From positions 1,986,702 to 2,050,701 of the forward strand of contig NZ_KB467824.1 of the NCBI RefSeq assembly GCF_000344615.1: DNA of 64,000 nucleotides, read 5' to 3'. The notes below the pieces were generated by a model that ran no database searches, was not told the origin of the DNA, and was given only the letters and a program-made list of their open reading frames with translations. Every line of letters starts with the position of its first letter. Within the stretch, counting starts at the first letter, position 1. This stretch comes from Janthinobacterium sp. CG3. GTDB taxonomy: Bacteria; Pseudomonadota; Gammaproteobacteria; Burkholderiales; Burkholderiaceae_D. Below are positions 44,784 through 63,379 of this stretch, one piece after another. The translations under genes were made by a program, and so were the position numbers.

Positions 44784-44816
44784 GGCGGCGCGCCCGGGCG
44801 GGCGCGCCGCCTTCTA
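44784..44816. terminator. Bidirectional terminator between convergent genes
   Basis: GGCGGCGCGCCCG (44784-44796) and CGGGCGCGCCGCC (44799-44811) are perfect 13-base inverted arms, followed by TTCTAT on the + strand. It fills the 43-nt gap between the secreted-protein gene and nasA and could stop transcription from both sides. Confidence 0.6.
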
Positions 44817-47561
44817 TGCCGTCTCCTCGACGCGCGTCTCGACCAATAATTTCTTAATCTCCGGCACGCAGGAACCGCAATTGCCGCCCGCCTTCACGCA
44901 GGCCGTCACCGCCGCCACGCTGGTCAGGTTCTGGCCGCGGATGGCGTCGCAAATGGTGTTGCGCCCGACGCCGAAGCACGAGCACACCGTCGGCCCGGTA
45001 TCGGCGCCCTTCTCGATCGGCTGGCCGACCAGCAGGCCGACGCGGTCGACCTCGGACAGCTGCTCGTGGCCGAACAGGCCCGCCAGCCAGGCCCGCGACG
45101 GCAGGTCCGGCCGCGGCGACAGGAACACGCACTGGTCGATGCGCCCGTCCACCAGGTGCACCGCGCGGTACACGCCGGCGCTGCGGTCCTCGTATTCGAG
45201 CCAGTCGGCCTGTTCGTCGTCGACCGCCAGCAGTTGCCGCGCCCAGGCGCTGTAGTCGGCGATGGCGTTGCGCCCGGCCAGTTCGTAGCGCGCGAAGGAG
45301 CGGCCCTGGATGCGGGTCCAGTGCGCCACGCCGTCGAGCGCCAGCTCGCCGCGGCTCAGAATGAAGCCGTGCCAGGAGACGCGGAACTGCTCGACCCGCA
45401 CCGGCGTGTGCTTGAATTCCGGCTCGCCCGAGACCGGGTCGACCACCGGGTTGACCAGCGCGCCGACGCGCGCGTCGGAGGCGGTCTGGCCGCTCCAGTG
45501 GATCGGCACGAACACGCCGCCGCGGGCGATGCCGCCGCCGTGCCGCACCCGCGCCACCATCGCCCCCCACCGGGTCGACACGCGCGCCAGCTCGCCCTCG
45601 CGCACGCCGTACAACAAGGCGTCCTGCGGGTGGATGTCGACGAAGGATTCGGCCACGTGGTCGGCCAGCTTGGCCGATTTGCCGGTGCGCGTCATGGTGT
45701 GCCACTGGTCGCGCACGCGGCCGGTGTTGAGGATCAGCGGGTACTCGGCGTCGGGCCGGTGCGCCGGCGCGCGCGGCGCCGTGGCGACGAAGCGGGCGCG
45801 CCCGTCGGGGTGGGAATACTGGTGCTCGCCCAGCAGGCGCTGTTGCCCCGCCAGTTCGCCCGAGGCCAGCCGGGTGACCGGCCACTGCACCGGTTCGAGC
45901 TGGTCGAACTGGCGCCGGTCCATGCCGGCCAGCGCGGCGATGTTGAAGGCGCGCCGGGTGGCGCCCCCGCCCTCGCCGTCGGCGCCGTTGCGGTAGCCGC
46001 TCAGGCGCGCGTGTTCGTCGAAGACCTCGTGCACGGCGCCGAAGTCGAAGCCGGCAAAGCCCATGCGCTGCGCCACCTGGCACAGGATCTGCCAATCCGG
46101 CCGCGCCTCGCCCGGCGCCGCCAGGAAGCCGCGCTGGCGCGAGATGCGGCGCTCGGAATTGGTGACGGTGCCGTCCTTTTCGCCCCAGCCCAGCGCCGGC
46201 AGCAGCACATGGGCGAAGGCGTTGGTGTCGGTTTTTTCGACGATGTCGGTAACCACCACCAGTTGGCACTTCTCCAGCGCGCGCTGGACCTGGTTGGCGT
46301 CGGGCATGCTGACGATCGGGTTGGTGGCGATGATCCACACCGCCTTGACGCTGCCCGCTTCGATGGCCTGGAACAGGTCGACCGCCTTCAGCCCCGGTGT
46401 GGCGGCGATGCGCGGCGAGCCCCAGAAGGTTTGCACGGTGTCGCGGTGGAGCGGGTTGTCCAGGTCCATGTGCGCGGCCAGCATATTGGCCAGGCCGCCC
46501 ACTTCGCGCCCGCCCATGGCGTTGGGCTGGCCGGTCAGCGAGAACGGCCCCATGCCGGCACGGCCGATGCGCCCCGTCGCCAGGTGGCAGTTGATGATGC
46601 TGTTGACCTTGTCGGTGCCGGCCGAGGACTGGTTGACGCCCTGCGAAAAGGCGGTGACGACCTTGTCGGTGGCGGCGAAGGCGGCGTAGAACGCCAGCAG
46701 GTCCTTCGGGTCGACGCGGCAGATTTTGGCGACCGCCAGCGGGTCGGCGCAGTCGACGTGGGCGGCGGCCAGGGCCGCGTCCAGGCCGTTTGTGTGCGCC
46801 GTGACGAAGGCGGCGTCGACGGCGCCGTGCAGCGCCAGGTAGCACAGCAGGCCGTTGAACAGCCAGACGTCGGTACCCGATTTCACCGGCAGGTGCAGGT
46901 CGGCCTGCTCGCAGGTGGCGGTGCGGCGCGGGTCGATCACCACCAGTTTCATCTCGGGGCGGGCCTCCTTGGCGCGGGCGATGCGCTGGAACAGGATCGG
47001 GTGGCACCAGGCGGTGTTGGAGCCGACCAGCACCACCATGTCGGCCTGTTCCAGGTCCTCGTAGCAGCCCGGCACCAGGTCTTCGCCGAAGGCGCGCTTG
47101 TGGCCGGCCACCGCCGACGACATGCACAGGCGCGAATTGGTGTCGATGTTGGCGCTGCCGATGTAACCCTTCATCAGCTTGTTGGCGATGTAATAGTCCT
47201 CGGTCAGCAACTGGCCCGAGACGTACAGCGCGACCGACTCGGGGCCGTGCTCGGCGACGATGGCGCGCCAGCCGTCGGCGACCTGGTCGAGCGCCTCGTC
47301 CCAGCTGGCGCGGCGCAAGGCGCCGCCGGCGTCGCGCAGTTGCGGGTGCAGCAGGCGCCCGTCCAGGCCCAGCGTCTCGCCCAGCGCCGAGCCCTTCACG
47401 CACAGCCGGCCGGCGTTGGCGCCGTGGCCGCTGTCGCCGGCGATGGCGATGCTGCCGTCCGGCAGCGGGGTCGCCTGGACGCCGCAGCCGACGCCGCAAT
47501 ACGGACAGGTGGTGCGCACCGCGAGGGCGCTGGAAGGAAGGGGATGGACATTCAGGTTCAC
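44814..47561 (-). CDS. nasA: Assimilatory nitrate reductase, catalytic subunit
   Basis: The 915-aa molybdopterin enzyme reduces nitrate to nitrite in the cytoplasm. The N-terminal [4Fe-4S] ligands are in CPYCGVGCGVQA with a fourth Cys in AGRLCVKGSA. Family blocks include SANIDTNSRLCMSSAVAGHK and the C-terminal cofactor domain LILNTGRVRDQWHTMTRTGK. A BFD-like [2Fe-2S] domain closes the protein (VCSCFGVGRNTICDAI and GGNCGSCVPEI), which can accept electrons directly from a flavoprotein. It is the last gene of the nitrate operon, 13 nt after the FAD reductase. Confidence 0.96.
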   Translation of the reverse strand: MNLNVHPLPSSALAVRTTCPYCGVGCGVQATPLPDGSIAIAGDSGHGANAGRLCVKGSALGETLGLDGRLLHPQLRDAGGALRRASWDEALDQVADGWRAIVAEHGPESVALYVSGQLLTEDYYIANKLMKGYIGSANIDTNSRLCMSSAVAGHKRAFGEDLVPGCYEDLEQADMVVLVGSNTAWCHPILFQRIARAKEARPEMKLVVIDPRRTATCEQADLHLPVKSGTDVWLFNGLLCYLALHGAVDAAFVTAHTNGLDAALAAAHVDCADPLAVAKICRVDPKDLLAFYAAFAATDKVVTAFSQGVNQSSAGTDKVNSIINCHLATGRIGRAGMGPFSLTGQPNAMGGREVGGLANMLAAHMDLDNPLHRDTVQTFWGSPRIAATPGLKAVDLFQAIEAGSVKAVWIIATNPIVSMPDANQVQRALEKCQLVVVTDIVEKTDTNAFAHVLLPALGWGEKDGTVTNSERRISRQRGFLAAPGEARPDWQILCQVAQRMGFAGFDFGAVHEVFDEHARLSGYRNGADGEGGGATRRAFNIAALAGMDRRQFDQLEPVQWPVTRLASGELAGQQRLLGEHQYSHPDGRARFVATAPRAPAHRPDAEYPLILNTGRVRDQWHTMTRTGKSAKLADHVAESFVDIHPQDALLYGVREGELARVSTRWGAMVARVRHGGGIARGGVFVPIHWSGQTASDARVGALVNPVVDPVSGEPEFKHTPVRVEQFRVSWHGFILSRGELALDGVAHWTRIQGRSFARYELAGRNAIADYSAWARQLLAVDDEQADWLEYEDRSAGVYRAVHLVDGRIDQCVFLSPRPDLPSRAWLAGLFGHEQLSEVDRVGLLVGQPIEKGADTGPTVCSCFGVGRNTICDAIRGQNLTSVAAVTACVKAGGNCGSCVPEIKKLLVETRVEETA

Positions 47562-47574
47562 GATAACTTCCTGG

Positions 47575-48804
47575 TCAGGCCGCCAAGCCGCAGAGCGACT
47601 TGCCGAACAATAAATGGTTGCGCATGGCGGAAATATCGGTGCGGTTCTGGATCAGGTCGAAGTACCACGGGCCGTCCTGCACGTCGCCGTACAGCACCGC
47701 GCCGGCCACCTGGTTGCCCTTCAATACCAGGCGCTTGTAGACGCCGCGGCGCGGATCGCGCAACACCAGGTCTTCGCTGTCGGGGCCGCCGATGAAGTCG
47801 CCCACCGAGTACAAGTCTACGCCGGTTACCTTCAATTTGGTGGGCGTGGCCTGCTGCACGTAGCGGCGGTGGCCGGCGCCGGCCAGGTGGGCGCCGCAGA
47901 CGCGCGCCTGGTCCCAGATCGGCGCCACCAGGCCGAAGGTGGCGCTGCGGTGCTGCACGCACTCGCCCACCGAATAGATGCGCGGGTCGTAGGTTTGCAG
48001 CGTGTCGTCGACCACGATGGCGCGCTCGCAGTGCAGGCCGGACTGCTTGGCCAGCTCGATGTTGGGACGCACGCCGGCGGCCATCACCACCAGGTCGGCG
48101 GGAATCTCCGTGCCGTCCTTGAAGCGCACCGCCGTGACGCGCTCCGGGCCGACGATGTCGGCGGTGTGGGCGTCGAGCATGAAGCGCAGGCCCTTGCGTT
48201 CCAGCGCGTTTTTCAGCATCAGCGAGGCCGGCTTGTCGAGCTGCTGGTTCATCAGCGCGTCGGTGACGTGCACCACGGTGACGTCCATGCCCTGGCGCAG
48301 TAGGCCGTTGGCCGCTTCCAGCCCGAGCAGGCCGCCGCCGATGACGACGGCGTGGCGGTGGTTGCGCGCCGCCTCGAGCATGGTTTCGACGTCCTGGATG
48401 TCGCGGAAGGCGATCACGCCGGGCAGTTGGTGGCCCGGCACCGGAATGATGAAGGGCTTCGAGCCGGTCGCCAGCAGCAGGCGGTCGTAATGGACCTGAA
48501 GGCCGGAGCGCGCGCGCACGATGCGCCGGCGCCGGTCGATGTGCTCGACCGGGTCGCCGGCGTGCAGCGTGATGCCGTTGGCCACATACCATTCGGGCGT
48601 GTTGAGCATGATGTCGGCGACGCTCTTCTCGCCCGCCAGCAGCGGCGACAGCAGGATGCGGTTGTAGTTGCCGTGCGGCTCGGCGCCGAAAACGGTGATG
48701 TTGTACAACTCCGGCGCCAGCTTTTGCAGCTCCTCGACCGTGCGCATGCCGGCCATGCCGTTGCCGATCACCACCAGCGACGGTTTCGCGGCGCGCGCGT
48801 TCAT
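47575..48804 (-). CDS. FAD-dependent electron-transfer reductase for nitrate reduction
   Basis: The 409-aa protein is a pyridine nucleotide-disulfide reductase-like flavoprotein. FAD binding is LVVIGNGMAGMRTVEEL, NAD(P)H binding is VVIGGGLLGLEAANGLLRQG and a second FAD contact is IYSVGECVQH. It resembles the N-terminal half of NirB and of NasB/NasC-type reductases. Placed between nirD and nasA, it probably carries electrons from NAD(P)H to NasA. Its ATG overlaps nirD by 4 nt (ATGA). Confidence 0.88.
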   Translation of the reverse strand: MNARAAKPSLVVIGNGMAGMRTVEELQKLAPELYNITVFGAEPHGNYNRILLSPLLAGEKSVADIMLNTPEWYVANGITLHAGDPVEHIDRRRRIVRARSGLQVHYDRLLLATGSKPFIIPVPGHQLPGVIAFRDIQDVETMLEAARNHRHAVVIGGGLLGLEAANGLLRQGMDVTVVHVTDALMNQQLDKPASLMLKNALERKGLRFMLDAHTADIVGPERVTAVRFKDGTEIPADLVVMAAGVRPNIELAKQSGLHCERAIVVDDTLQTYDPRIYSVGECVQHRSATFGLVAPIWDQARVCGAHLAGAGHRRYVQQATPTKLKVTGVDLYSVGDFIGGPDSEDLVLRDPRRGVYKRLVLKGNQVAGAVLYGDVQDGPWYFDLIQNRTDISAMRNHLLFGKSLCGLAA

Positions 48805-49148
48805 GCGCCTACCCAGACCCTGCCGCCCTCGATGCGGGCCGGCCAGGTGGCCACCGAGTGTTCCGGCGCCTCCAGGCATTCGCCGGTCTGCAAGTCGAAA
48901 TGCTGCTTGTAGATCGGCGAGGCGACCACCAGGCGCTGGCCCAGGTTGCCGACCAGGCCGCGCGAGAGCACCGCGGCGCCGCTGTTCGGGTCGACGTTGG
49001 CGATGGCGAAGACCCGCTCGCTGCCGTCGTTGACGTGGAACACGGCTACTTGCTCGCCGTTGAGCAGCGCGCACACGCCGGTGTTCGGCACGATGTCGGC
49101 CAGTGCGCAGACGGATACCCAGTTGTCGGTTTGAAGGTCGCGGTGCAT
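48801..49148 (-). CDS. nirD: Assimilatory nitrite reductase small subunit
   Basis: The 115-aa protein has a Rieske-type fold (NVDPNSGAAVLSRGLVGN, then YKQHFDLQTGEC) but lacks the two Cys-His pairs that hold a [2Fe-2S] cluster, as is normal for NirD. It associates with NirB for NADH-dependent nitrite reduction to ammonium. I start at ATG 49148, six bases after GGAG; an in-frame ATG at 49166 is less well placed. It lies 72 nt after nirB. Confidence 0.93.
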   Translation of the reverse strand: MHRDLQTDNWVSVCALADIVPNTGVCALLNGEQVAVFHVNDGSERVFAIANVDPNSGAAVLSRGLVGNLGQRLVVASPIYKQHFDLQTGECLEAPEHSVATWPARIEGGRVWVGA

Positions 49149-49220
49149 GGTGTTCTCCAGTTTCATATATAACTAATTTGTTTGCTGCTCGCCGAAATCC
49201 CAGGTTTTACGATGCAAGAA

Positions 49221-51755
49221 TCATGCCGTGGCGGCGACGATGGGGATCGTCACGCGCTTGCGCTCTTCCAGCGTGGCCGGACGGATCTGCCCGCGCTCTT
49301 CGACGAACACCACGTTCGGATCGGCCAGGTCGCTGTTGACGAACTGGCGGAAGCGTTTGCGCGTTTCCGGATCGTCGACGGCGGCCTTCCACTCGCAGGC
49401 GTAGGTGTCGACGACGTGCTGCATGTCCGCTTCCAGCTCGGCGGCGAGGTTCAGCTTGTCGCCGATGACGACTTCCTTCAGGTAGTCGAGGCCGCCCTCC
49501 AGGTTGTCGCGCCACACGCTGGTGCGTTGCAGGCGGTCGGCGGTGCGCACGTAGAACATCAGGAAGCGGTCGATGTAGCGCACCAGGGTTTCCCGGTCGA
49601 GGTCGGACGCCAGCAGTTCGGCGTGGCGCGGTTTCATGCCGCCGTTGCCGCACACGTACAGGTTCCAACCCTTCTCGGTGGCGATCAGGCCGATGTCCTT
49701 GCCCTGCGCCTCGGCGCACTCGCGGGTGCAGCCGGAGACGCCGAACTTGATCTTGTGCGGCGTGCGCAAGCCCTTGTAGCGGTTTTCCAGTTCGATCGCC
49801 AGGCCGACGCTGTCGGCCACGCCGTAGCGGCACCAGGTCGAGCCGACGCAGGATTTGACGGTGCGCAGCGACTTGCCGTAGGCGTGGCCGGACTCGAAGC
49901 CGGCGGCGATCAGTTCCTCCCAGATCAGCGGCAGTTGCTCGACGCGGGCGCCGAACAGGTCGACCCGCTGGCCGCCGGTGATCTTGGTGTACAGGCCGTA
50001 TTTCTTGGCCACCGTGCCGACCGCGATCAAGCCGTCGGCCGTGACCTCGCCGCCGGCCATGCGCGGCACCACCGAGTAGCTGCCGTCCTTCTGGATGTTG
50101 CCGAGGAAATAGTCGTTGCTGTCCTGCAGGCTGGCGTGCTCCCTCTTCAGCACGAAGTCGTTCCAGCACGAGGCCAGCACGCTGGCTGCGACCGGTTTGC
50201 AGACGTCGCAACCGAGGCCCTTGCCGTGCTGCGCCAGCAAGTCCGCGAAGGTGGTGATCTTGCCGACGCGCACCAGGTGGTACAGCTCCTGGCGCGAATA
50301 GGCGAAATGCTCGCAGACGTGGTTGTTGACGTCCAGGCCGAGCTTTTTCATCTCGGCCTTCATGATCTGCGTCACCAGCGGCACGCAACCGCCGCAGGCG
50401 GTACCGGCCTTGGTGCAGCTTTTCAGCGCGCCGATCGAGGTGGCGCCGTCGCCGACGGCGGCGCACAGCGCGCCCTTGCTGACGTCGTTGCACGAGCAGA
50501 TCTGCGCGCCGTCCGGCAGCGCGTCCACGCCCAGGCCCGGGCGGGCCTTGCCGTCCGACTGCGGCAGGATCAGGAATTCCGGCGATTCCGGCAGCTCGAT
50601 GCGGTTGAGCATCATCTGCAGCAGCGTGCCGTACTCGCTGGCGTCGCCGACCATGACGCCGCCGAGCAGGAACTTGCCGCACTCGGAGACGACGATTTTC
50701 TTATAGATCTGCTTGCGCTCGTCGGTGAACTGGTAGGAGCGGCTGCCGGCGGTGGTGGCGTGCGAGTCGCCCATGCTGGCCACGTCGACGCCCATCAGCT
50801 TTAATTTGGTGCTCATGTCGGCGCCGGTGAAGGCGCCCTGCTCGCCCAGCAGGTGGCGCGCGGCGATGCGCGCCATTTCATAGCCGGGCGCGACCAGGCC
50901 GAAGATCTGTCCGCCCCACAGCGCGCATTCGCCGATGGCGTAGACGTCCGGGTCCGAGCTCAGGCAGCTGTCGTCGATGCTGATGCCGCCGCGCGGACCG
51001 ACCGTCAGGCCGCTGGCGCGGGCCAGTTCGTCGCGCGGGCGGATGCCGGCCGAGAAGACGATCATGTCGGCGTCGAGGTGGCTGCCGTCGGCGAACACCA
51101 TGCGGTGGGTGCCGTCGACGCCGTCGACGATTTCCAGCGTGTTCTTTTGCGTGTGGACGGTGACGCCGAGCTGTTCGATTTTGCGCCGCAGCACGCGCGC
51201 GCCGCCCTCGTCAACCTGCACCGCCATCAGGCGCGGGGCGAATTCGACGACGTGGGTGTCGAGCTTCATGTCGCGCAGCGCCTTGGCGCATTCCAGGCCG
51301 AGCAGGCCGCCGCCGATGACCACGCCGGTCTTGGAACGGTTGCCGCATTCGAGCATCGCCTCCAGGTCTTCGATGGTACGGTAGACGAAGCAGTCCTTGC
51401 GGTCCTTGCCCGGCAGCGGCGGCACGAACGGATACGAACCGGTGGCGATCACCAGTTTGTCGTAGGACAGCACTTCGCCGGTGCTGACGGTGACGGTCTT
51501 GGCGCCGCGGTCGATGGCGCCGGCCTTGGCGTTGAGTTTGAGCAGCACGTTGCCGCGCTCGAAGAAACCGGGCGGCACCAGCGACAGGTCCTCGGCCGAT
51601 TTGCCGGCGAAGAATTCGGACAGGTGCACGCGGTCGTAGGCCGGGCGCGGCTCTTCGCACAGCACCGTTACCTCCAGGTGGGGCGCGCCGCTGTCGGCCA
51701 GGCGTTCGAGGAATTTGTGGCCGACCATGCCGTGGCCGATGACGATAATTTTCAT
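49221..51755 (-). CDS. nirB: NADH-dependent assimilatory nitrite reductase large subunit
   Basis: The 844-aa enzyme reduces nitrite to ammonium with six electrons. N-terminal FAD and NADH folds (IIVIGHGMVGHKFLERLADS and GVVIGGGLLGLECAKALR) are followed by a BFD-like [2Fe-2S] domain (CSCNDVSKGALC, CGGCVPLV). The C-terminal sirohaem and [4Fe-4S] domain has its ligands in CVGSTWCRYG and GVSGCTRECAEAQGKDIGL. AGGAGAAACAAC precedes the ATG. It follows the nitrate transporter by 29 nt in one operon. Confidence 0.96.
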   Translation of the reverse strand: MKIIVIGHGMVGHKFLERLADSGAPHLEVTVLCEEPRPAYDRVHLSEFFAGKSAEDLSLVPPGFFERGNVLLKLNAKAGAIDRGAKTVTVSTGEVLSYDKLVIATGSYPFVPPLPGKDRKDCFVYRTIEDLEAMLECGNRSKTGVVIGGGLLGLECAKALRDMKLDTHVVEFAPRLMAVQVDEGGARVLRRKIEQLGVTVHTQKNTLEIVDGVDGTHRMVFADGSHLDADMIVFSAGIRPRDELARASGLTVGPRGGISIDDSCLSSDPDVYAIGECALWGGQIFGLVAPGYEMARIAARHLLGEQGAFTGADMSTKLKLMGVDVASMGDSHATTAGSRSYQFTDERKQIYKKIVVSECGKFLLGGVMVGDASEYGTLLQMMLNRIELPESPEFLILPQSDGKARPGLGVDALPDGAQICSCNDVSKGALCAAVGDGATSIGALKSCTKAGTACGGCVPLVTQIMKAEMKKLGLDVNNHVCEHFAYSRQELYHLVRVGKITTFADLLAQHGKGLGCDVCKPVAASVLASCWNDFVLKREHASLQDSNDYFLGNIQKDGSYSVVPRMAGGEVTADGLIAVGTVAKKYGLYTKITGGQRVDLFGARVEQLPLIWEELIAAGFESGHAYGKSLRTVKSCVGSTWCRYGVADSVGLAIELENRYKGLRTPHKIKFGVSGCTRECAEAQGKDIGLIATEKGWNLYVCGNGGMKPRHAELLASDLDRETLVRYIDRFLMFYVRTADRLQRTSVWRDNLEGGLDYLKEVVIGDKLNLAAELEADMQHVVDTYACEWKAAVDDPETRKRFRQFVNSDLADPNVVFVEERGQIRPATLEERKRVTIPIVAATA

Positions 51756-51784
51756 GTTGTTTCTCCTAAACGAACTGAGCTGAA

Positions 51785-53074
51785 CTAAGCGGCGGCCAGG
51801 GTCGGCTCGCTGGCGGTGGAGAAGCGCGCGGCGACCGCGCACAGGGCCGAGACGATGACCAAGCCGCTGAGGATGCTCAGCGTCTGCTGGATGTCGCCGG
51901 TGCCCTTCATCAGGAAGCCGGCGGCCACCGCGCCGACGTTGCCGCCGGCGCCGATGATGCCGGCCACGCCGCCCAGGGCCTTGCTGTCGATGAACGGCAC
52001 CAGCGCGTAGGTGGCGCCGCAGGCCATGTGGGTGAACAGGCCGAACACCAGCATGGCGACGACGGCGTAGGCGACGCCGTCGGCGTTGGCGAACCACAGC
52101 AGGCCCAGGCCCTCGCCGATCATCATCAGGAACAGCAGCGTGACGCGGCTGTTCAGGTTGCCGCGCAGGGCCATCTTGTCGGAGACCCAGCCGCCCAGGG
52201 CGCGGGCGAACAGCGCCAGCAGGCCGAAGCTGCCGGCGGCCAGGCCGGCCGACTTCAGCGACAGGCCGAAATGGTCGACGTAATAGACGGCGGCGATGTT
52301 GTGGATGAAGATCTCGATGCCGAAGCAGGCGCCGTAGGTGACGAACAGCAGCCAGACGCGGTAGTTGGCGCTGGCCGCCTTGAAGCTGTCCCAGCCGCCC
52401 TTCTTGCCGCCGTCGACGGCGATGCCGGCGGCGCGCATGTCGCTATAGTTGCCTTCCGGGCAGTCCTGGGTGAACTTCCAGTAGAGCACGGCCATGACCA
52501 GCATCAGCACGCCCGGCACCAGCAGCGCGACGCGCCAGCCCAGCGTCTCGGACACGCCCAGCATGATGAGCGCGCCCATCAGCAGGGGCATCAGCGCCTG
52601 CGCCGCGCCGCCGCCGGCGTTGCCCCAGCCGGCGGCGGCCGCGTTGGCGGTGCCGACGACGTTGGAGGCGAACATCACCGAGGTGTGGTATTGGGTGATG
52701 ACGAAGCTGGCGCCGACGGCGCCGATGCCCAGGCGGAAGATCAGGAAGCTCTCATAGCTCTGCGACATGGCCACGCCCAGCACCGGCACCGCGCCCAGCA
52801 GCAGCAAGCCGGTGTAGGCCTTGCGGGGACCGAAACGGTCGCACATCGGGCCGATCACCAGCCGCACCAGGATCGTGATGGCGACGGCGGCGATGTTGAT
52901 GTTGGCGATTTGCCCGATGCTCAGGCCGAACTCGCCTTTGATGATGGGCATCAGTGGCGCGCAGGCGAACCAGGCGAAGAAGCAGACGAAGAAGGCCATC
53001 CAGGTCAGGTGGAAGGCGCGCATCGGCGCCGTGTTGAAGGTGAAGAGCTTGATGCTGCTTGCTTTGCTGGCCAT
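51785..53074 (-). CDS. narK: NarK-type nitrate/nitrite MFS transporter
   Basis: The 429-aa protein has about 12 transmembrane helices and the nitrate signature of this MFS branch in GWGNAGGGAAQALMPLLMG and GAGGNVGAVAAGFLM. It imports nitrate, possibly in exchange for nitrite. I start at ATG 53074; a longer frame to 53413 would cross the leader hairpins and promoter and is rejected. It is the first gene of the operon, directly after a leader with an intrinsic terminator. Confidence 0.95.
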   Translation of the reverse strand: MASKASSIKLFTFNTAPMRAFHLTWMAFFVCFFAWFACAPLMPIIKGEFGLSIGQIANINIAAVAITILVRLVIGPMCDRFGPRKAYTGLLLLGAVPVLGVAMSQSYESFLIFRLGIGAVGASFVITQYHTSVMFASNVVGTANAAAAGWGNAGGGAAQALMPLLMGALIMLGVSETLGWRVALLVPGVLMLVMAVLYWKFTQDCPEGNYSDMRAAGIAVDGGKKGGWDSFKAASANYRVWLLFVTYGACFGIEIFIHNIAAVYYVDHFGLSLKSAGLAAGSFGLLALFARALGGWVSDKMALRGNLNSRVTLLFLMMIGEGLGLLWFANADGVAYAVVAMLVFGLFTHMACGATYALVPFIDSKALGGVAGIIGAGGNVGAVAAGFLMKGTGDIQQTLSILSGLVIVSALCAVAARFSTASEPTLAAA

Positions 53075-53095: not shown

Positions 53096-53142
53096 AAAAA
53101 GCGTCCGCCCCGCCTGGAGTAAAAACCAAGCTGGGCGGACGC
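53096..53142 (-). terminator. Leader terminator (attenuator) of nitrate operon
   Basis: On the - strand GGGCGGACGC's complement arms, 53133-53142 and 53101-53110, form a perfect 10-bp stem, with a 22-nt loop that can extend it through a smaller stem. TTTTT (53096-53100) follows, then CGTTTTTT. An intrinsic terminator before the first gene implies that transcription must be antiterminated to reach narK. Confidence 0.8.
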
Positions 53143-53154
53143 CGTTGTCCTTGT

Positions 53155-53204
53155 CGACCCATCGTTGGGCCGGCACTAGTTGTTCAGGGGATCGCCATTG
53201 ATCC
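53155..53204 (-). promoter_or_regulatory. Dual ANTAR-target hairpins in nitrate operon leader
   Basis: In the transcript, P1 is GGATC-AATGGC-GATCC (53204 to 53189) and P2 is CGGCCC-AACGAT-GGGTCG (53172 to 53155). Both have six-base loops with A at position 1 and G at position 4, the pattern recognised by ANTAR-domain antiterminators such as NasR and NasT. They lie just before the terminator stem. P2 contains one G-U pair. The ANTAR protein is not encoded in this window. Confidence 0.8.
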
Positions 53205-53218
53205 GATAGGTATCCTTT

Positions 53219-53234
53219 AGCAAGCGCCGTGCCA
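53219..53234 (-). promoter_or_regulatory. Sigma-54 promoter of nitrate operon
   Basis: On the - strand TGGCACG-N4-TTGCT matches the sigma-54 consensus, with GG at 53232-53233 (-24) and GC at 53220-53221 (-12) correctly spaced. Transcription should begin near 53208, four bases before hairpin P1. Sigma-54 dependence implies an enhancer-binding activator, most likely NtrC under nitrogen limitation. Confidence 0.85.
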
Positions 53235-53343
53235 GAGCGCGTTACCGGCTGCGCAGGGGGCGCGCGGGCGGCCGCCGCGCCGCGGCGCGGGGCGCCATGA
53301 GACATCGCGGTGCGCTTTCGCCCGAAAATGGTGCAGTGCATGG

Positions 53344-53357
53344 TGGAACGTGTTCCA
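53344..53357. promoter_or_regulatory. 14-bp perfect palindrome, possible activator site
   Basis: TGGAACGTGTTCCA is a perfect dyad about 110 bp upstream of the sigma-54 promoter and 200 bp upstream of the divergent CHASE gene. A TGGTGCA half-site resembling NtrC sites lies next to it at 53329-53335. The binding protein is unknown. Confidence 0.4.
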
Positions 53358-56300
53358 TGTGCGCGGGCCGTCGCTATTTTTCCACGGCAATGGCCGGCGT
53401 TTCCCCTAAACATTTCGGAAATAGGTTACTGTAGGCTGTCTCCGGCGCCTTGCGGCCGCGGGTAAATGGTTTTCCAGGCCCACCGGCAACCGCCCGGCCC
53501 TTCACGCACGCGGCGGTTATTCCAACCGACTGAACTGGCCGCCAATGGAGGCAATATGTCGCGCGCCCGCTTTTGTTTGCCCTCGGTTTCCTATCCGGCG
53601 CTGCTGGTGCTGCTGCTCGGATGCGTCTTGAGCGCCGCCCTGTTTGCCAGCGGGCGCTATCTGGAACACGACCGCCTGTCGCTGGAATTCCAGGACCAGG
53701 CGAATCTGCGCATGATCGCCATCCGCGACGACTTCACCAGCGCGGTCGAGGAACTGCAAACCATCAACCAGTTTTTCGTCAGCACCGGCGCGGTCAGCCG
53801 CGAGCAATTCCGCAGCTTCGTCCAAATCTCGCTGAAACACCATCCGGCGATCCAGTCGGTGGCGTTCCAGCGCCTGCTGGCGGGCGCCGAGCGGCCGGCC
53901 TACGAGCGGGCGATGGGCGCGCTGTACGCGGATTTCGCCATCACCGAAATACGCGACGGCAAACGGCAAGTGGCCGGCCAGCGCGAGCAATACCGCGTCG
54001 TCGACTATCTGGAACCGCTGGTCGGCCACACCGGCGCGCTGGGCCTGGACGTCTTGACGATCGCCGAACAGGCCGAGGCGGCCGCGCGCGCGCGCGACGG
54101 CGGCGGCATGGCCGCCACCAAACTGTTCCGGCGCACCCGCGACAAGGCCGGCGAGCGCAGCTTCCTGGTGATGATGCCGGTCTACCGCCACGGCGCGCGG
54201 CTCGACGGCGCCGCCGCCCGCCGCGCCGCGCTGCTCGGCTATACCACCGTGGTATTCCAGATCGGCTCGGCCATCGAGACCATCCTGCGCACCAGCGGCT
54301 TCCTGCACAACGCCGAGATCGCCGTCGCGGTGTACGACAGCAAGCGCGCCGACCCGGCCAACCTGGCCTACCGCCACGGCGCGGCGGCGGCGGCGGCGCC
54401 GGCCGCCGCCGGCTGGCTGCCGGCGTGGCTGTGGCACAACGAACCGAGCGCCGTCGCGTATGGTTTCGAGGTGGCCGACCGGCCGTGGCTGGTGCAAATT
54501 TCCCGCCAGGGCAGCTCGCTGACCGGCAGCGGCAGCGGCGCCCTGCTGGCGCTGGCGCTGGCGCTGACGCTGTCGCTGCTGGCGGCCGGCTTCACCCAGA
54601 CGCTGGTGGCGCGGGCGCGCCGCACCCAGCAACTGGTCGACGCGCGCACCGCCGAACTACGCCACAGCAACACCGAGCTGGCCGCCGACATCGCCGCGCG
54701 CACCCGCGCCGAGGACACGCTGCGGCTGATGCAGGGCGCCATCGAGGCCAGCGCCAACGCCATCCTGATCTGCTCGGCGCAGGAGCGCGGCTACGTGCTC
54801 GAATACGTCAACCCGGCCTTCCAGCAGGTGACAGGCTACGCCGCCGGCGAGGCGCTGGGGCGCAACTGCGCCTTCCTGTGGGGCGCCGACGCCGAGCAGG
54901 CCGGCATCACCGAGATCCGCGCCACCGTGCGCGAGCTGCGCGACGGCCACGCGGTGCTGCGCTGCTACCGCCAGGACGGCACGCTGTTCTGGTGCGAAGT
55001 CTACATCGCCCCGGTGCGCAACGACGCCGGCGCGATCGGCCATTTCGTCGTCGCGCTGTACGACATCACCGCCACCAAACGCTACGAGGCCGAGCTGGAA
55101 TTCCAGGCCAACCGCGACACCCTGACCGGGCTGGCCAACCGCAACCTGCTCAGCGACCGCCTCAGCCAGGCCATCGTCTACGCCGCCCGCGACGACTTTC
55201 CGCTGTATATCGCCTTTATCGACCTGGACCACTTTAAATTCGTCAACGACACGCTCGGCCACGCCGCCGGCGACGCGCTGCTGCGCACGATGGCGCAGCG
55301 CCTGGAGGCCGAGGCCGGCGGCGCCAGCACCGCGGCGCGCATCGGCGGCGACGAATTCGTGCTGATCCTGCCCAACGACCTCGACGAATACACCGCCTCG
55401 CTGGCGCTGCAACGCATCCTCGACGCGGTGGCCGCGCCGGTGCACATCGAGGGACACGAGCTGTTCCTCACCTGCAGCATCGGCGTTGCCGCCTACCCGG
55501 CCGACGGCGCCGACCCGGAGGCGCTGATCAAGCACGCCGACATCGCCATGTACCGGGCCAAGCAAACCGGGCGCAACAACGTGCAGTTCTACAAGGCGGC
55601 GATGAACGAGCGCGCCCTCGAACGCCTGCGCATCGAGGGCGACCTGCGCAACGCCATCGAGCGCGAAGAGTTCGAACTACACTACCAGCCGCAAGTGGAC
55701 CTGCGCAGCGGCCGGGTGGTCGGCATGGAGGCTTTGATCCGCTGGAACCACCCGCAACTGGGCCAGCTGGCGCCGCTGCGCTTCATCGCCCTGGCCGAGG
55801 AAACCGGGCTGATCGTGCCGATCGGCGCCTGGGTGGTGCGCAGCGCCTGCCGCCAGAACCAGGCCTGGCAAGACGCCGGCATGGCGCCGCTGCGGGTGGC
55901 GGTGAACCTGTCGGCGCGCCAGTTCGCGCAAGCGGACCTGCTGCCGTCGATCGCCGCGGTGCTCGACGAGACCGGCCTGGACGCGCGCTGGCTCGACATC
56001 GAACTTACCGAAAGCATGGTCATGGCCGACGTCGAGCACGCCATCAGCGTGCTGGGCGGCCTGAAAAAGCTCGGCGTGCACCTGTCGATCGACGACTTCG
56101 GCACCGGCTATTCGAGCCTGTCGTATTTGAAACGCTTCCCCATCGACGTGCTGAAGATCGACCGCTCCTTCGTGCGCGACATCAGCACCGACCCGGACGA
56201 CGCCGCCATCACGCTGTCGATCATCTCGCTGGCGCACAGCCTGAGGCTGAAAGTGGTCGCCGAGGGCGTCGAAACCGAAGCCCAACTGGGCTACCTGCGG

Positions 56301-56821
56301 CGCCACGGCTGCGACCAGATGCAGGGCTACTATTTCAGCCCGCCGCTGCCGGAGCGCGACTTCCGCCAACTGATGCGGCAAAACACGACGCTGGCGCCGC
56401 CGCCCGGCGAAGCGGCGCCGCGCGAGACGCTGCTTATCGTCGACGACGAAGCGCAAGTGGCGGCGGCGTTGAAACGGCTGATGCGCCCGGACGGCTACCA
56501 GATCCTGACGGCGGCCACGCCCGACGAGGGCTTTCGCCTGTTGGCGCTGCACCGCGTGCAAGTGATCATTTGCGACCAGCGCATGCCGCTGATGCGCGGC
56601 ACCGAATTCCTCAACAAGGTGCGCCAGTTGCATCCGGATACCATCCGCATCGTCCTGTCGGGCTACACGGCGCTGGAATCGGTCATCGACGCGATCAACG
56701 AAGGGCAAATCTACCGCTTTTTCACCAAACCGTGGGACGACGACATCGTGCGCAAGACCGTGCGCGGCGCCTTCCACCAGTACGCGCTGGTGCACGAGGC
56801 GGCGCGCGGCGGCGGCGCCGC

Positions 56822-63375
<6,554 letters not shown>

Positions 63376-63379
<4 letters not shown>

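Follow-up and report, generated by a model that had tools for sequence, protein, structure and literature searches.

A conserved three-hairpin leader of ANTAR-target type behind a sigma-54 promoter in a Janthinobacterium nitrate operon, and its possible identity with the Rfam narK RNA

Introduction

What controls the narK-nirBD-FAD reductase-nasA operon of Janthinobacterium sp. CG3: a sigma-54 promoter, a terminator in its leader that an ANTAR protein lets RNA polymerase pass, or both, and which hairpins of the leader would such a protein hold? The operon lies in a 64,000-nucleotide stretch, the whole of which we analysed and here call the window (C1:1986702-2050701 of a 6.27 Mb genome). ANTAR antitermination is described, in the excerpts of PMC3369931 and PMC7496416, as the work of a protein that holds two hairpins with A at loop position 1 and G at loop position 4 (A1/G4), the second of which excludes a terminator, and A1 and G4 are the positions that mattered for ANTAR binding in mutational work (PMC3369931, excerpt). 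The original prediction, made from the letters of the window, placed both layers of control in this leader and counted two such hairpins ahead of the terminator.

Operon and leader organization

All on the minus strand, the operon comprises narK (51785..53074), encoding a NarK-family nitrate/nitrite transporter matched by TIGR00886 at 290.8 bits, below the cut-off of 311.7, and by MFS_1; nirB (49221..51758) and nirD (48801..49166), for the large and small subunits of nitrite reductase, both matched above cut-off (TIGR02374, 1132 bits; TIGR02378, 117.7 bits); a gene for an FAD/NAD-dependent reductase subunit that by profile matches resembles the N-terminal half of NirB (47575..48804); and a gene for a putative nasA-type assimilatory nitrate reductase with a C-terminal BFD iron-sulphur domain (44814..47561). 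The best models for the last protein were formate dehydrogenase alpha (487.4 bits, cut-off 666.25) and NasC (436.6 bits, cut-off 1100), and since both fell under their cut-offs we named it from operon position and domains. Elsewhere on this strand of the window (56822-63379) lies a gene for a 2185-aa hybrid histidine kinase-like protein, in which a long near-identical repeat array, HAMP-like by eye, stands ahead of the kinase part.

The leader reads on the minus strand from 53234 to the start codon of narK (53074-53072) and presents, in order, a sigma-54 site, three hairpins (P0, P1 and P2), a terminator and narK. The -24/-12 promoter TGGCACG-N4-TTGCT (53219..53234; TGGCACG-GCGC-TTGCT from 53234) has the GG and GC of the two elements in correct spacing, the GC (53221-53220) marking the -12 element; rpoN is present in the source genome, and the strict pattern is common in narK leaders (see below). 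Counted 12 nt past the C of this GC, the predicted transcription start falls near 53208, four bases ahead of P0. The hairpins are P0, GGATC-AATGGC-GATCC (53189..53204), P1, CGGCCC-AACGAT-GGGTCG (53155..53172), and P2, GGAC-AACGGC-GTCC (53137..53150), each a short stem with an A1/G4 loop of six bases. P2, the putative antiterminator, has 7 nt in common with the terminator's 5' arm (53133..53143), and hairpin and terminator are mutually exclusive. The terminator arms (53143-53133 and 53111-53101) form a perfect 10-bp stem, GCGTCCGCCC/GGGCGGACGC, followed by TTTTT at 53100-53096, so that the 3' arm and U tract together occupy 53096..53111.

Promoter, terminator and a start four bases before the first hairpin thus stand as originally predicted. 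Both hairpins then described (P0 as the first, P1 as the second) are real and have A1/G4 loops; the third, P2, had been overlooked. The observation of the leader is confirmed with this correction, three ANTAR-type hairpins and not two. Since it is P2 that is conserved and competes with the terminator, we gave up the earlier version of the target, in which P0 and P1 made a complete site.

Stem-to-stem gaps in the window are 16 nt for P0-P1, 4 nt for P1-P2 and 38 nt for P0-P2. PMC8164766 works with linkers of 2-25 nt for ANTAR RNAs, a range that includes the first two gaps and excludes the third. Both 4 and 16 nt are outside the narrower range of the E. faecalis eut leaders, where, in the excerpt of PMC3369931, linkers for EutV measure 5-12 nt and induction was lost at 3 and 14 nt.

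Regulator genes in the genome

A whole-genome scan with PF03861 (ANTAR) found two places, both beyond the window, which agrees with the absence of a nas regulator gene from the window noted earlier and supplies the ANTAR gene expected elsewhere in the genome. One is a NasT-type gene about 10 kb past the window end (C1:2060391-2060549, 79.5 bits), whose product has 217 aa from the chosen start and a C-terminal ANTAR domain. It is followed by a leader similar to that of narK and by a nasS-like gene, whose product matches PF13379 (NMT1_2) at 328.9 bits and has no evident signal peptide by eye; nasT thus adjoins a gene of the nitrate-binding NasS type, as in NasS-NasT regulons. Neither protein matches an NCBIfam model that would name it NasT or NasS, and the names used here are given by domain and gene order. 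The second ANTAR protein, of a receiver and an ANTAR domain, is encoded on contig 2 (L002:1438-2070, minus strand).

The leader between nasT and the nasS-like gene (L003:11150-11224, minus strand; C1:2060149-2060223) is a second sigma-54 and ANTAR leader, through which NasT may promote readthrough into its own inhibitor's gene, a feedback loop. Further along, between the nasS-like gene and a uroporphyrinogen-III C-methyltransferase (SUMT) gene, lies a gene (L003:9135-9815, minus strand) whose small product combines a PilJ-type domain with part of an MCP signalling region and shows no obvious membrane part by eye. The SUMT gene comes next in the same direction (L003:8345-9115, minus strand); its product belongs to the sirohaem route, which NirB needs.

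Folding predictions and chance controls

The 137-nt stretch 53208-53072 folded at z = -4.96, and 0 of 200 shuffles were equally stable. When hexaloop hairpins of the A1/G4 type with at least 4 bp were counted, the window leader had three, against none in 1816, one in 178, two in 6 and three in 0 of 2000 dinucleotide shuffles; given this count and the folding z-score, chance is a poor explanation. Shuffled windows from the leaders of the NarK-protein set described below (n = 1560) had none in 1481 cases, one in 77 and two in 2, and no A1/G4 hexaloop hairpin occurred in any of 80 coding windows of 90 nt. A simple terminator scan showed no excess, with one site at the leader (a short alternative stem) against a shuffle mean of 1.1.

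Folded in isolation, P2 has an energy of -4.0 kcal/mol and the terminator one of -33.2 kcal/mol, so P2 would need help to survive. Fold prediction on growing prefixes gave P0, then P1, then P2, with the terminator displacing P2 once its 3' arm was largely made; in the complete leader, forcing P2 yielded -44.4 versus -54.2 kcal/mol. The fold program adds an A-U pair within the P1 loop of the window, leaving a loop of four bases.

Order-wide leaders and covariation of P1 and P2

At gathering score, Rfam had no match in the window, and most low-threshold matches there were taken as chance. The family RF03032 ('narK RNA', type Cis-reg) scored 23.1 bits at the window leader, below its gathering cut-off of 43.2; genome-wide only the nasT-nasS leader exceeded the cut-off (50.9 bits), and the window leader ranked second. 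Among 300 genomes of the order, RF03032 matched at E 0.01 or better in 54, above cut-off in 4, giving 56 places, 30 of which were fetched as loci. We read 31 leaders (29 from other genomes, our own nasT-nasS leader and the window leader), accepting hairpins from 3 bp. P1 and P2 with A1/G4 loops were found in 31/31, a count to be read with the fact that the RF03032 model selects for P1 and for the letters of P2, if not for P2 pairing. One more A1/G4 hairpin, located behind the promoter and ahead of P2, was seen in 3 of the 31 (the window, L032 and L041).

Across these 31 leaders, P1 and P2 had 93.5% paired cells (70.3% in shuffles), 79 double-change cells (24.4 in shuffles) and a covariation score of 0.624 (at most 0.143 in slid controls); 9 pairs changed on both sides, a number that 40 of 500 shuffles also attained. 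In P2 the outer pair was GC in 19, CG in 6, AU in 3 and GU in 1. A first alignment had paired the window's P0 with P2, MAFFT and the covariance model paired P1 with P2, and both readings were kept. The model, R1, was built on P1 and P2 from a MAFFT alignment of 28 of the 31 leaders (L019, L027 and L029 were left out as near copies). Searched against the source genome, R1 placed the nasT-nasS leader first (49.2 bits) and the window leader second (41.7 bits), with the next place at 20.4 bits; this is what the original prediction would lead one to expect, and the two scores are not independent, since both leaders are among the 28 model sequences. A match at 48990-49071 (16.2 bits), within the nirD coding sequence, was taken as chance.

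Leaders in the genus and family

Clear R1 places (E 4.1e-5 or better) were found in 37 of 40 genus genomes, two others having only weak places and one none, and 153 of 245 family genomes had places at E 0.001. We examined 111 places, 44 from the genus and 67 from the family, the latter made up of the 28 best-scoring ones and 39 hand-picked for a narK-type span and varied genera. Three A1/G4 hairpins were present in 37/37 genus narK leaders and in 30 of 32 narK leaders from other genera of the family, a partly hand-picked set in which one further leader had two and one had four. Leaders of nasS/nrtA had two hairpins in 19, three in 13 and one in 2 family cases, and two in 3 and one in 3 genus cases. 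The third A1/G4 hairpin in these 13 of 34 family nasS/nrtA leaders, counted mechanically (L107, L112, L157, L158, L160, L162 and others), often lies upstream of P1 with a different stem, such as GCGCC-AACGAT-GGCGC, and may have been gained independently.

The overlap of P2 with a terminator was found in 109 of 110 genus and family leaders, after exclusion, by look, of a match within an open frame (L095, genome G305). The one without a detected terminator (L153) appears to be the same locus as L210, the corresponding case in the NarK-protein set below.

For P0 and P1 we used the 45 distinct rows of an alignment of 67 narK leaders, chosen for having the hairpins (from 69, one two-hairpin and one four-hairpin leader being dropped). 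In these rows 10 of 18 pairs of P0 and P1 changed on both sides (39 cells versus 12.4), with 5 of 6 in P0, whose outermost pair is present in just 13 of the 45, and 5 of 8 in P1. P2 was invariant across the 45 and is the best conserved of the three hairpins.

Is the middle hairpin a binding site?

A less biased set was drawn by NarK protein, taking the best 80 of 572 loci, of which two were too short; the named relatives among the resulting 78 leaders were mostly Janthinobacterium, Massilia, Duganella and Herbaspirillum. Within these best 80 of 572, 76 of the 78 leaders carried the strict sigma-54 pattern and 77 a P2-type hairpin with an overlapping terminator. By mechanical count, 63 leaders had three hairpins, 10 had two, 2 had one, 2 had none and 1 had four, and this count contains errors: six of the ten leaders counted as two (L190, L200, L207, L223, L240 and L244) show a mismatched middle hairpin, L219 and L237 scored zero and have three hairpins but fail the strict sigma-54 pattern, L226 scored three and has only two before the terminator loop, and the third hairpin of L214 is a shifted one beside a damaged P2 stem.

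The alternative that survives best is that P1 is a spacer stem joining P0 and P2, so that NasT would contact P0 and P2 as a normal two-hairpin site with a folded linker. The loops of P0 and P2 are nearest to a shared consensus (AAYGGC in 62 and AACGGC in 65 of 67 leaders, respectively), P1 loops varying more, and within the best 80 of 572 NarK-protein loci a clear P1 is missing from four Burkholderia/Paraburkholderia leaders that keep P0 and P2, and in two Cupriavidus leaders the middle stem is long and its loop is not of ANTAR type. Against this, a clear middle hexaloop hairpin, scored with any loop letters, was present in 70 of 74 scorable leaders of the same set (L226, L236, L237 and L243, with no recognised P0 or P2, were dropped), and A1 and G4 were kept in 70/70 of them, or 45/45 distinct loops, these being related leaders and not independent events. 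The other positions of the 45 distinct loops were looser, with A in 43 at position 2, C in 36 at position 3, A in 36 at position 5, and C16/T13/G9/A7 at position 6. In our view, nothing argues more strongly for P1 as a binding site, over a mere spacer, than the strict constancy of A1 and G4. The P1-P2 spacing is also the tightest, with a loop gap of 13-14 nt in 55 of 67 leaders (21-36 nt for P0-P1), and one Duganella leader of the NarK-protein set has P1 and P2 without P0; the distance of P0 to the -12 element is near-fixed (19-20 nt in 56 of 67). On this evidence we consider the spacer reading unlikely, though it deserves to be kept in mind. These natural variants make it testable which hairpins NasT grips.

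Co-occurrence with ANTAR proteins

By eye, all 37 genus genomes with a three-hairpin narK leader encode an ANTAR protein of at least 69 bits, and the three without the leader (G305, G327 and G336, with completeness of 99%, 88% and 82%) encode only ANTAR proteins of 42-50 bits; G327 has two weak matches. A close nirB is missing from these three as well, which suggests that pathway, leader and regulator go together and also means that they provide no clean test. In the family, 150 of 153 leader-positive genomes had an ANTAR gene, compared with 44 of 92 others, and the three positive genomes without one were all weak matches (E 1.7e-4 to 4e-4). The co-occurrence counts given here and in the next section ignore shared descent.

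The receiver-ANTAR protein of contig 2 might act on the leader in place of NasT. Its score class (about 42 bits) is widespread, being found by eye in 38 of 40 genus genomes, with only our own member annotated, but the class is kept in two of the three leader-less genus genomes (G305 and G327), so that its presence is unlinked to the leader, and it is NasT that adjoins the sister leader. We regard a role for this protein here as very improbable.

Relation to Rfam family RF03032

The RF03032 consensus starts with GGCaC...UUGCU, which reads as the sigma-54 promoter, and ends with CGACAAAGACGUCGC, drawn unpaired. Its order is that of the window leader, with a sigma-54 element, an A1/G4 hairpin and then RF03032's own CGAC-AAAGAC-GUCG stretch; it differs from our reading of the window in that one hairpin is drawn and both P2 and the promoter are left unpaired. 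On the simplest reading of these letters, RF03032 looks like a sigma-54 promoter plus a NasT target whose P2 was drawn unpaired. At least 45 of the 56 RF03032 matches have an ANTAR gene no more than 7 kb away, and at least 31 directly follow one on the same strand, in a count that took in the ANTAR places of the leader-positive genomes and two of other genomes. By eye and with kinship ignored, an ANTAR gene was present in 52 of the 54 RF03032-positive genomes, two lacking it, versus 96 of 246 others.

That the leader is a metabolite-binding riboswitch, and not the target of a protein, would suit a catalogued cis-regulatory RNA whose regulator is unnamed in the scans. The closeness of most matches to an ANTAR gene speaks against it, as do the small hairpins with ANTAR-type loops, beyond which no further conserved core was seen, and a conserved 5' part that reads as promoter DNA; we give it even less credence than the receiver-ANTAR protein. 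Our reading would offer a function for an Rfam family shown only as 'Cis-reg' in the scans. It also suggests that promoter DNA makes up part of the RF03032 RNA model, which should caution those who search for motifs near promoters.

Upstream sites and proposed mechanism

Upstream of the promoter, the window has two putative NtrC sites on the minus strand, TGCACCATTTTCGGGCG (53319..53335) and, 21 nt away and downstream, CGCACCGCGATGTCTCA (53298..53314), which score 9 and 8 of 12 against what we take to be the NtrC consensus. For comparison we used the 56 of 69 narK leaders with 300 nt upstream, 26 of them from the genus, bearing in mind that the leaders are related. A dyad of 9/12 or better to this presumed consensus occurred in 53 of 56 (8.9 expected from single-base shuffles), and 46 of 56 had a pair of YGCAYC half-sites at a spacing of 20-22 nt (0.14 expected), a pattern chosen after the dyad result; such pairs were found in 25 of 26 genus leaders and 21 of 30 from other genera, and the window has one. 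Between the narK promoter and a divergent gene at 53466-56879, GGDEF/EAL-like by eye, there is also an inverted repeat with 6-base arms, TGGAAC-AC-GTTCCA (53344-53357, minus strand).

The NasT-type gene with its NasS-like neighbour, the R1 score and a hairpin that competes with the terminator support the ANTAR-type reading, and the leader is very probably a NasT-controlled attenuator transcribed from the sigma-54 promoter. Under nitrogen limitation, NtrC bound at the paired upstream sites would fire this promoter, and RNA polymerase would first make P0, P1 and P2. Without NasT, fold prediction has the terminator invade P2, and transcription would stop before narK. Nitrate or nitrite, by analogy with known ANTAR systems, would free NasT from NasS; NasT would then grip the A1/G4 hexaloop hairpins, P2 would stay closed and transcription would enter narK-nirBD-FAD reductase-nasA.

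P0, P1 and P2 can be seen as two overlapping two-hairpin sites, P0-P1 and P1-P2, and their joint use is the least supported step of this scheme: most likely, NasT would load early on the upstream site and then secure P2, or more than one NasT dimer would bind cooperatively. The fuller proposal, which we put forward tentatively and with somewhat less than even confidence, joins a triple-hairpin ANTAR element (NasT loaded on P0-P1 and passed to P1-P2, or bound as an oligomer, for a faster or steeper nitrate response) to the identification of RF03032 as the same NasT target. If it is true, the response to nitrate would be quicker or steeper than that of two-hairpin leaders. A plain attenuator under sigma-54 as the sole real control would fit a terminator as stable as this one (-33.2 kcal/mol), but conservation extends to the hairpins and to their mutually exclusive overlap with the terminator, and the chance of such an attenuator seems as slight as that of a riboswitch.

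Comparison with known systems

Joint control by sigma-54 and an ANTAR protein is already known from Klebsiella and Azotobacter. Klebsiella nasF is under sigma-54 control, and a NasS-NasT system of Azotobacter vinelandii nasAB was reportedly described by Wang in 2012. A further system that bears on ours is from Bradyrhizobium, an Alphaproteobacterium.

The nasF leader of Klebsiella with its regulator NasR resembles ours, in the excerpts of PMC7496416 and PMC3369931, in that a nitrate-responsive ANTAR protein serves a nitrate assimilation operon through A1/G4 hexaloop hairpins, the second exclusive with a terminator; NasR differs in having its own NIT sensor, and the nasF leader described there has two hairpins, versus three here. 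For the NasS-NasT system of A. vinelandii nasAB we rely on Wang 2012 as cited in the excerpts of PMC12316311 and PMC8443478. There, and at Paracoccus nasA (PMC3795266, excerpt), NasT released by nitrate or nitrite binds the nas leader, as proposed for ours, and the operon order is unlike that of the window. Paracoccus nasA is preceded by 'a series of regulatory hairpins' (PMC3795266), whose number is not given in the excerpt and may exceed two. In the Bradyrhizobium nosR and narK leaders, NasT antitermination and NasT-type hairpins predicted before narK are again alike (PMC6759348, excerpt), but under denitrifying conditions narK rose instead of falling in a nasT mutant, a result that we count against the NasT model. 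The eut leaders of Enterococcus share the dual A1/G4 hexaloop hairpin for a dimer of the ANTAR protein EutV and the competition of P2 with the terminator; they differ in signal, operon, hairpin number (two) and linkers of 5-12 nt (PMC3369931, excerpt).

More than two hairpins have also been described: three in a mycobacterial RNA that binds an ANTAR protein (PMC8131098, excerpt), and many ANTAR RNA matches in six transcription units of one Desulfotomaculum (PMC3369931, excerpt), so that several ANTAR elements per transcription unit are not new. Judged by title and the start of the abstract, the matches listed in our literature searches included no report of a three-hairpin ANTAR leader and none linking RF03032 to ANTAR, and the literature searched yielded no paper under 'narK motif', 'narK RNA' or RF03032. 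Without claiming priority, we note that two things seem new here beside these systems: the conservation of a leader with three hairpins, and its connection with RF03032. They turn a guess from a single sequence into a family-wide, testable regulatory element, and the three-hairpin form, next to the two-hairpin leaders of Klebsiella and Enterococcus, makes it possible to ask directly what number of hairpins an ANTAR regulator grips at once and how the terminator is beaten.
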